Positions 2,724-15,647 of a DNA stretch of 49,284 bases are shown one piece after another. The DNA comes from Deltaproteobacteria bacterium. Lineage in GTDB: Bacteria; Myxococcota; JACPTQ01. The stretch spans positions 1 through 49,284 of the forward strand of contig JACPTQ010000001.1 of NCBI GenBank assembly GCA_016192705.1. The letters run 5' to 3'. How positions within the stretch are numbered: position 1 is the first letter of the stretch; every line of letters begins with the position of its first letter. The notes under the pieces are model-generated. The model saw only the letters and a list, made by a program, of their open reading frames with translations. It was not told the DNA's origin and did not search any database. A program made the position numbers and the translations under genes.

Positions 2724-2762
2724 GCGATCACTTTATCAAAGCCACGAGTCGCGTACAGGAAA

Positions 2763-3106
2763 CCCTGGTTCCCGGATAACGGGGAAGATTTGAGTGGGGC
2801 GGGCGGGGTCTGGGCTCGCTCCGGCTCGCGGAAGTCCTCGGGTCTGATATGAAATGTGAGTCTGCACGAATTGAATCAAACATCACGAGAACGGCAATCC
2901 CACGCTCCATCGGCACCTCATCCCCTGCACAAAGGTGCGCTACGGGCTGCAGCGCGATATCGGCTGGGACCGCTGAGCTTTCACGTGCCTCTGAACTTCC
3001 GATCAATCGCACGTCTTAAGTCAGACCCGAGGACGTCGGCGCGCCGAAGCGGCCCCCGCCGATCCTACGCACAGAAGAGAACTGGTCGCTTATCCGGGGA
3101 TCAGAG
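2763..3106. mobile_element. MITE-like element, copy A (344 bp)
   Basis: The ends are inverted repeats: CCCTGGTTCCCGGATAA (2763-2779) against TTATCCGGGGATCAGAG (3090-3106), 14 of 17 matching. Inside, GTCCTCGGGTCTGA (2834-2847) recurs inverted at 3021-3034. A 9-base direct repeat, TACAGGAAA (2754-2762 and 3107-3115), flanks it, as expected for a target-site duplication. It carries no credible gene. Both arms resemble copy B at 14264-14801, which has about 190 extra bases in the middle. The right tip supplies the last codon and the stop of the VanX-like gene. The family is not identified. The whole 2724-3100 gap is this element plus a short left flank. Confidence 0.8.
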
Positions 3107-3724
3107 TACAGGAAAGCGTGCGGCGTCGGGCGCGTTGAAATGCCACCACTCGGTGGTGATGGCGCGAAAACCCGCGCGCAGCATGGCGCGCCGCAGTCGC
3201 TCGCGGTTCTTTTTCGCGACGACCGGAAGATCGCGGGCGCGGGCGTGCGCGCGCGGCGAAAACTCGTCGTGTGGCGTTGGCATCTCAACTTCGTGTCCGC
3301 TCTCATCGACGAGCGTCACGTCGATGGCGGCGCCTCGGTTGTGGTTCGACCCCTTCGCAGGATTTCCGACGTAGCGTTCATCGGGGACGAGCCTCCACAT
3401 CTCGCGCTGAACCGACAATGGGCGGTAGCAGTCCCAAACCTTGATGCGCAGTCGGTGTGCCGAAAGGAAGCGCTGCGCGCGGGCGAGACGTTTTGCCGTT
3501 TCGGGGCGCAAAAGGCAGCGTGCACCGGCCGGATAAACGGCGCGCTTTAAAAAGTTGTCCGCGGTTGCGTAGCGAAGGTCAACGACGAGGTTCTTGACGA
3601 CCGTCGCTGCGTCGACGAGGCCAGCGTTGCGCGCCGCGCGAGGCGCGGATACGGCGGCCAGCGGGAGAAATGATAACCCTGCAAGGCACGCGGCCGTCGC
3701 GGTGAGAAAAGGTGGCGCCCTCAT
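3101..3724 (-). CDS. VanX/DdpX-like D-alanyl-D-alanine dipeptidase
   Basis: A 207-residue secreted zinc peptidase of family M15D that cleaves D-Ala-D-Ala or related dipeptides, probably in the periplasm for peptidoglycan recycling. It has a signal peptide (residues 1 to about 26). The zinc and catalytic motifs are intact: SNHNRGAAID (the SxHxxGxAxD motif) and EWWHF near the C-terminus. There are no vanH or vanA neighbours, so resistance is not implied. The gene follows the B12-binding gene by 12 bases. Its final leucine codon and stop come from the tip of the mobile element; read through the other copy of the target repeat, the frame would have ended RDSWL-stop at 2736. Confidence 0.9.
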   Translation of the reverse strand: MRAPPFLTATAACLAGLSFLPLAAVSAPRAARNAGLVDAATVVKNLVVDLRYATADNFLKRAVYPAGARCLLRPETAKRLARAQRFLSAHRLRIKVWDCYRPLSVQREMWRLVPDERYVGNPAKGSNHNRGAAIDVTLVDESGHEVEMPTPHDEFSPRAHARARDLPVVAKKNRERLRRAMLRAGFRAITTEWWHFNAPDAARFPVL

Positions 3725-14196: not shown

Positions 14197-14263
14197 GATT
14201 TGAGCCTAGTCGGATTCTTGACCCTAGCCAAGCGCCGGTGATACGAAACGAGCATCGGATGAA

Positions 14264-14801
14264 CCCTGATTCCCGGATAACGGAGAAGACTTCAGTGGGG
14301 CGGTCGGGGCTGGACTCGCTCCGGCTCGCGGAAGTCCTCGGGTCTGACATTAAATGCGAGTCTGTACGAAATGAATCAAGCATCATGAGAACGGCAATGC
14401 CACGCTGCATCGGCACCTCATCCCCTGCGGACGCGAGCCTCCGCTTGCCCAATCCCCGCCCGCCCAATCAGAACCCGGCCGTTTTCCTGGAACGGCGATT
14501 AAGAGACTTGGGGGTCGATCGATCGTTAGCCGACACCCAGCGGGTGAACTCTTCGAACCGCCCTCAAGCACAGAAAACACGTCTCCGGAAAGCGGCCCGC
14601 CCGGTTTTGCGTGGGGTCGGCAGGGGCGCCGCGCAGGCGCGCCTCCGCAGGGTCTGCAGCGAAATATCTGCTGGGATCGCCAAGATTTCGCTTGCCTCTG
14701 AACAGCGGCTCTGTCATGCGCGATAGTTTAGACCCGAGGACGTCGCGGCACCTGCCGACCCTACATACGGAAGAGACCTGGCCGCTTATCCGGGGATCGA
14801 G
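14264..14801. mobile_element. MITE-like element, copy B (538 bp)
   Basis: The tips are CCCTGATTCCCGGATAA (14264-14280) and TTATCCGGGGATCGAG (14786-14801), the same inverted ends as copy A at 2763-3106. Both arms match copy A, while about 190 bases between roughly 14435 and 14630 have no counterpart there. A 14-base direct repeat, GAGCATCGGATGAA, flanks it (14250-14263 and 14802-14815); the right copy contains the start codon of the next gene. The inner inverted pair GTCCTCGGGTCTGA (14334-14347) against its partner at 14729-14741 is also kept. No transposase or credible gene is inside. This element fills the 614-base gap 14197-14810. Confidence 0.8.
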
Positions 14802-14810
14802 GAGCATCGG

Positions 14811-15647
14811 ATGAAGCTTCGTGTCGTCGCGGTTGTGCTCGTTTCCTTAGGGATGTCGCTCACGGCGCGCGCGAACTCGAACGACCTGCATCTCCTCAAC
14901 TTCGTCACGAAGACCGCGAATCCTCAGACCGGCGGTTTCATCTACACGCAGAACAGCGACATGTTCAATCAGCTTGCCGAAATCATGGGGCACATTATCG
15001 CGCCCCGCGTTTTGGCGCCGGGCGACACGCTGGGCGCGTGGGGAATCGAAGTCGCCTACGAACAGGCGTTCGTCCATTTGAACGCGTCGAATGCCGCGCT
15101 CGCGGCCGCGGTTGAGGACGGGAGTCCCGATTCTTTTATGCTGCTTCCCGCGATTCGGTTTCGAAAAGGGCTTCCGTTCAGCCTCGAGCTTGGCGCGACG
15201 TTCACGGCGATCAAGGCGAGCGAGATGTATACGCTCGGCGTCGATTTGCGATTCGCGCCGATCGAAGGGTATTACGCGGCGCCCGATTTCGCGATTCGCG
15301 CTTCGGGAACGCGCCTCATCGGGTCGCGCGACCTTGATCTGACCACCGTTTCGCTCGACTTCACGATCGGAAAACGTTTCGCTGTTGGCGGCGTGATGAC
15401 GATGGCGCCTTACGGCGGGTACCAAGTCCTCCTCATCATCGCTTCATCGAAGGTGATCGATCCGACACCGAGCGACGCATCGGACACTGGGAACGACTTT
15501 GCGTTTCCGTTTCCGGGCTTGGCGATTGGTCACCGAGGGTTTGTCGGGATGCGCCTCAATTGGCGCTGGCTCACCTTCGTCGCCGAGGCGCTCATCGGCA
15601 CGGCGGAAGTGCAGACCTATTCGTTCAAACTCGGCTTCAACCTTTAG
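14811..15647 (+). CDS. Predicted outer-membrane barrel protein
   Basis: This 278-residue protein has a Sec signal peptide (MKLRVVAVVLVSLGMSLTARA, cleavage near 21) and a body rich in glycine with alternating hydrophobic residues, ending in SFKLGFNL, which fits a beta barrel. I do not recognise a specific family; OmpA-like or porin signatures are absent. ATG 14811 has GAGGAG 8 bases upstream, and that purine tract comes partly from the tip of mobile element copy B. The native promoter, if it was upstream, has been displaced by the 538-bp insertion plus the duplicated target. Confidence 0.8.
   Translation: MKLRVVAVVLVSLGMSLTARANSNDLHLLNFVTKTANPQTGGFIYTQNSDMFNQLAEIMGHIIAPRVLAPGDTLGAWGIEVAYEQAFVHLNASNAALAAAVEDGSPDSFMLLPAIRFRKGLPFSLELGATFTAIKASEMYTLGVDLRFAPIEGYYAAPDFAIRASGTRLIGSRDLDLTTVSLDFTIGKRFAVGGVMTMAPYGGYQVLLIIASSKVIDPTPSDASDTGNDFAFPFPGLAIGHRGFVGMRLNWRWLTFVAEALIGTAEVQTYSFKLGFNL

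Follow-up and report, generated by a model that had tools for sequence, protein, structure and literature searches.

A probable lineage-specific MITE family with long imperfect inverted repeats and a second structured repeat in its arms

Two elements in the window and the family to which they belong

In the window under study, a stretch of 49,284 nucleotides that forms part of contig C74 in the 5.2-Mb, 88-contig assembly of a deltaproteobacterium (Myxococcota, JACPTQ01), two unannotated elements with similar tips are each bounded by their own direct repeat, and the question raised by this locus is what these elements are and how they came to lie there. The sequence-only reading had taken them for copies of a non-autonomous transposable element, and this has been borne out by terminal inverted repeats, site-specific target-site duplications, more than 100 dispersed copies and no coding capacity. 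Every defining feature of a MITE that is open to test supports this reading, and with a probability of about 0.87 the elements belong to a lineage-specific, non-autonomous DNA transposon (MITE) family with long imperfect inverted repeats, which would have been mobilised in trans by a DDE transposase. The family has a high copy number and is well supported; it comes from a bacterial lineage that has been little sampled, and the enzyme that mobilises it was not found.

Copy A (2763-3105, + strand) was recognised by sequence inspection and a single-strand fold as a foldback MITE of 343 bp. Its left terminal inverted repeat, CCCTGGTTCCCGGATAACGGG, occupies 2763-2783 (+) and its right one, CGCTTATCCGGGGATCAGA, 3087-3105 (+), while the inner conserved block of the left arm, GAAGTCCTCGGGTCTGA (2831-2847, +), is nearly invariant in 24 aligned copies and returns inverted in the right arm as TCAGACCCGAGGACGT (3021-3036, +). 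The duplication to its left, GTACAGGAAA at 2753-2762, is identical to that at 3106-3115, so that the element and flanking repeat claimed earlier both stand, with the end moved from 3106 to 3105 and the repeat lengthened from 9 to 10 bp. Copy B (14264-14801, +) is of the standard class of about 545 bp and forms one long imperfect inverted repeat, predicted to fold end to end as a single imperfect hairpin (z = -4.65). Its limits had been given correctly, as had its 14-bp direct repeat GAGCATCGGATGAA, found on the left at 14250-14263 and identically on the right at 14802-14815; likewise the sequence contains the tips of both elements, as well as their flanking repeats and the inner pair GTCCTCGGGTCTGA / TCAGACCCGAGGAC.

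Both copies abut genes. Copy A lies just where an M15 D-Ala-D-Ala dipeptidase gene ends (3101-3724, - strand; PF01427, E=7.8e-43); the stop codon of this gene now falls in the right tip of the element, and the left flank would extend the dipeptidase by a few codons (...RFPVRDSWL*). The gene downstream of copy B (14811-15647, +; no Pfam match) has its start codon inside the right duplication, and a Shine-Dalgarno-like GAGGAG 5' of its ATG was created by the junction of element and duplication. A promoter and terminator scan across copy B returned nothing, nor did an Rfam search of the window.

The family extends far beyond the two copies to which it had first been limited: both are real, but the genome holds more than 100. 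Copy A as query gave 145 matches in its own assembly, and the left-tip 14-mer, at up to 2 mismatches, was found at 96 and 90 places on the two strands as against 10 for a reversed control pattern. Within 2.16 Mb of sampled sequence, at least 122 stretches of at least 130 bp belong to the family, a count and not a density, since the sampled stretches were picked around tip matches. Family members lie in both orientations, and a search of the host genome returned many copies with the same tips, with target-site duplications that differ from site to site. Extraction from tip to tip gave 68 intervals, a few of which stop at an internal sequence that resembles the tip; the consensus tip, CCYYGATYCCCGGWTAA, stands at both element ends. 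Three complete copies with different duplications are clustered within 3.3 kb at one locus (L029:3487-6729), where they surround an inositol monophosphatase gene and a PRK-type kinase gene.

Outside the host genome, an arm 25-mer was absent from GTDB r220 contigs, a search that may leave out records near the window's own, and the left arm gave only two weak matches of 31-46 bp, taken as chance, in 96 same-phylum genomes, relatives that share only the phylum with the host. The 19-bp tip has three single matches in GTDB r220 contigs, all in unrelated MAGs and about the number expected by chance, and these were set aside. The open-access literature searched contained no account of this family, nor of any tRNA-trailing hairpin repeat like the one discussed below.

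Target-site duplications and the mode of insertion

Evidence for mobility is found at the flanks. Of the 67 testable elements, 44 have a perfect direct repeat of 7 bp or more at the predicted boundary, where about 0.11 would be expected from randomly paired flanks, and when mismatches are allowed (repeats of 7-14 bp permitted) this rises to 53 of 67 against an expected 0.6, some two orders of magnitude above shuffled flanks. Duplications of 8 bp (17 elements) and 10 bp (15) are most frequent, followed by those of 9 (8), 12 (5), 11 (4), 13 (2) and 14 bp (2). This excess over chance, together with the lengths of 8-14 bp, shows that these are real target duplications and that the elements were inserted. 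The duplicated targets are AT-rich (47% GC versus 61% in the genome), begin with G in 31 of 53 cases and end with C in 24 of 53.

Under the MITE reading, a DDE transposase acting in trans would bind the tips of about 20 bp, and perhaps also the nearly invariant inner pair, would excise or copy the element, and would join it to a staggered AT-rich target bounded by G on one side and by C on the other. The length of the duplication is unusually variable, with a floor of 8 bp, and a range of 8-14 bp is wider than that left by most DDE transposases. Such variation would be explained if the copies had spread through an RNA intermediate by target-primed reverse transcription, as would the very stable predicted RNA fold; this reading is, however, very improbable, in that inverted repeats are conserved at both tips, the majority of copies are intact at either end, neither a 5' truncation gradient nor an A-tail is seen, and the symmetric G...C preference at the target ends is what is expected of a DDE synaptic complex.

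Pneumococcal BOX elements are short modular repeats that fold stably and vary in their interior, and the present family is likewise modular, variable inside and stably folded, a likeness of description; BOX differs in that its boxB modules stand in tandem and that it is not characterised by target duplications. The inner blocks of the present family, GAAGTCCTCGGGTCTGA and TCAGACCCGAGGACGTC, are conserved as well as the tips or better, and when both flanks of ten insertions were searched against Pfam, in no case did one family match on the two sides, so that no clear disrupted gene is seen among the ten. These observations, and the Shine-Dalgarno-like junction given by copy B to its downstream gene, would fit a functional intergenic structured element, a BOX/BIME-like regulatory repeat kept by host selection for which past mobility was incidental. 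Nevertheless, such a function is very improbable as the account of the family, as target duplications at most sites show that the copies arose by insertion, element length varies greatly with many deletion derivatives, and open-frame statistics do not clearly separate insertion sites from random sites.

Age of the family and the search for its transposase

Among assembled full-length copies, pairwise identity reaches 93.8% at most (nearest-neighbour median 87%), which is counted as a caveat on current mobility. A sub-case of the MITE reading, in which insertion ended long ago in a now long-dead family and the transposase was purged, draws on this divergence and on the lack of any transposase match to eight Pfam families in the whole assembly. 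It is a possibility, though not the favoured one. The two members of aligned duplication pairs disagree at only 17 of 516 positions, a count biased downwards by the selection of pairs for good score, as compared with about 10% divergence of copies from the consensus, which argues that many insertions took place after the family had diverged. In addition, copies cut at the ends of sampled stretches have closer relatives than internal copies (a median of 94%, reaching 100% over 140 bp), a pattern to be expected if the assembly broke at the youngest copies. Many copies do run to the end of a sampled stretch, mostly a contig end, which suggests that family copies help to fragment the assembly and would explain part of its fragmentation. 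One short contig (C18, 2827 bp) reads entirely as N and was set aside. Error-prone copying had been considered for the occurrence of perfect duplications beside diverged copies and was dropped, recent near-identical copies having probably been lost at contig ends.

The eight families searched were PF01609, PF03400, PF00872, PF01610, PF12762, PF00665, PF01797 and PF03050, which cover IS4/IS5 relatives, IS1, IS256, ISL3, IS1595, the rve families, Y1/RAYT and IS66, and the same searches give matches in control genomes. Recent multicopy IS elements are often missing from such assemblies, and the absence of a transposase from this one is therefore weak evidence. No autonomous element with the same tips was found, and those solo tips with a good match that were inspected run into MITE arms rather than a longer element; the source transposase is lost, unassembled or outside the tested families. 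IS1, IS4 and Mutator/IS256-type transposons leave duplications of about 8 bp or more, some of them variable, and long inverted repeats occur in eukaryotic Mutator relatives. The present family differs in that a search of the genome returned none of their cognate transposases, and its tips are so far assigned to no named family. REP/REPIN elements, which are mobilised by RAYT, were rejected, as PF01797 (Y1) has no match in the assembly and target duplications are present.

Modular arms and the two-hairpin repeat

The standard element is 543 +/- 5 bp, with 28 of the 68 elements falling within 533-548 bp, and further classes are seen at 627-637 bp (8 elements), 704-711 bp (4), 796-800 bp (2) and 882 bp (1). 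Overall, lengths range from 111 to 882 bp and include many shorter deletion forms, among them copy A, a deletion derivative in which consensus positions of about 166 and about 389 are joined. No Pfam family was matched by the ORFs within copies A and B and the 882-bp copy. The added length enters at two points, at consensus positions of about 167 and about 383, that lie opposite one another as partners in the folded element, and the left inserts are reverse complements of the right inserts. The size classes stem from the presence or absence of an internal module at paired points of the two arms; the element is one long imperfect inverted repeat, and longer copies nest a second structured repeat in its arms.

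This arm insert of about 90 nt is a member of a separate two-hairpin repeat family, in which 18 of 27 pairs have changed on both sides with pairing kept (20-member alignment). With a covariance model, 79 non-redundant copies were detected in the sampled sequence, 42 in MITE arms and 37 alone, but none in the window and none in the 96 same-phylum genomes; on this comparison the repeat is lineage-specific. Three loci tested against Rfam had no match. The longer elements would have arisen when the separate two-hairpin repeat became part of both arms. Most parsimoniously, a foldback ancestor would have carried the module in both arms, shorter classes having lost it from one or both, and copies A and B would have lost it with other arm segments by internal deletion. 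The family shows how MITEs may grow and shrink in modules, by uptake of a second structured repeat at paired arm positions.

Comparable modularity has been described in BrickBuilt of Porphyromonas gingivalis, where an internal repeat also sets MITE length, long stem-loops are predicted and copies are intergenic (PMC4596501). BrickBuilt grows by 23-nt tandem repeats and its tips match IS5-family elements (PMC4596501), whereas the present family uses a two-hairpin module of about 90 nt at paired arm points and no IS with the same tips was found. Chunjie, a MITE of 178-235 bp in Geobacter uraniireducens, is like the present family in several respects: its copies number in the tens and are mostly intergenic, their terminal inverted repeats are conserved and accompanied by direct repeats, partial copies are numerous, and the element has no transposase gene within it (PMC10969869). 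The present family differs from it in its standard length of about 543 bp (up to 882), near-complete inverted repeat, duplications of 8-14 bp and second structured repeat nested in the arms. What is unusual in the present family is that its duplications vary between 8 and 14 bp, that it folds back over nearly its whole length, that its length classes are modular and paired and involve a foreign structured repeat, and that a partner is missing.

The two-hairpin repeat also has a distribution of its own. In 9 of 25 distinct tRNA genes at the sampled loci (Cys, Val, Glu, Arg, two Gly, Leu, Tyr and Thr), a unit of about 86 nt starts directly at the tRNA 3' end or about one base away from it, and its outer stem is mostly ATTTTT.../...AAAAAT (L169:2537-2623, L168:19700-19786, L031:6419-6504, L062:5604-5688, L038:221-307, L138:7199-7283, L146:8865-8951, L149:17286-17372 and L168:19346-19433). 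Other standalone units lie away from tRNA genes (L052:1363-1449, L120:16991-17076, L139:3840-3924, L179:18001-18087 and others), and standalone copies show no excess of MITE-type flanking direct repeats. The tRNA-trailing repeat may be a new structured RNA or a mobile hairpin in its own right. It is also conceivable, although doubtful, that the whole reflects a repeat ecology without a known transposase, in which a foldback element moved by an undescribed transposase with 8-14 bp duplications, and an RNA-like two-hairpin trailer of tRNA 3' ends spread without duplications and was built into both arms.

Some standalone two-hairpin copies carry a tandem G-A step (GCGAGC opposite GCGAGC), and others have C-G pairs there (CGCCGC opposite GCGGCG). 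A further hairpin, TTGGTGTCGCGGCAGTGCCGCGCAG, is seen by itself as well as inside both the two-hairpin unit and the arms of MITE copies (L126:11211-11353, L106:4743-4770 and L182:1994-2039).
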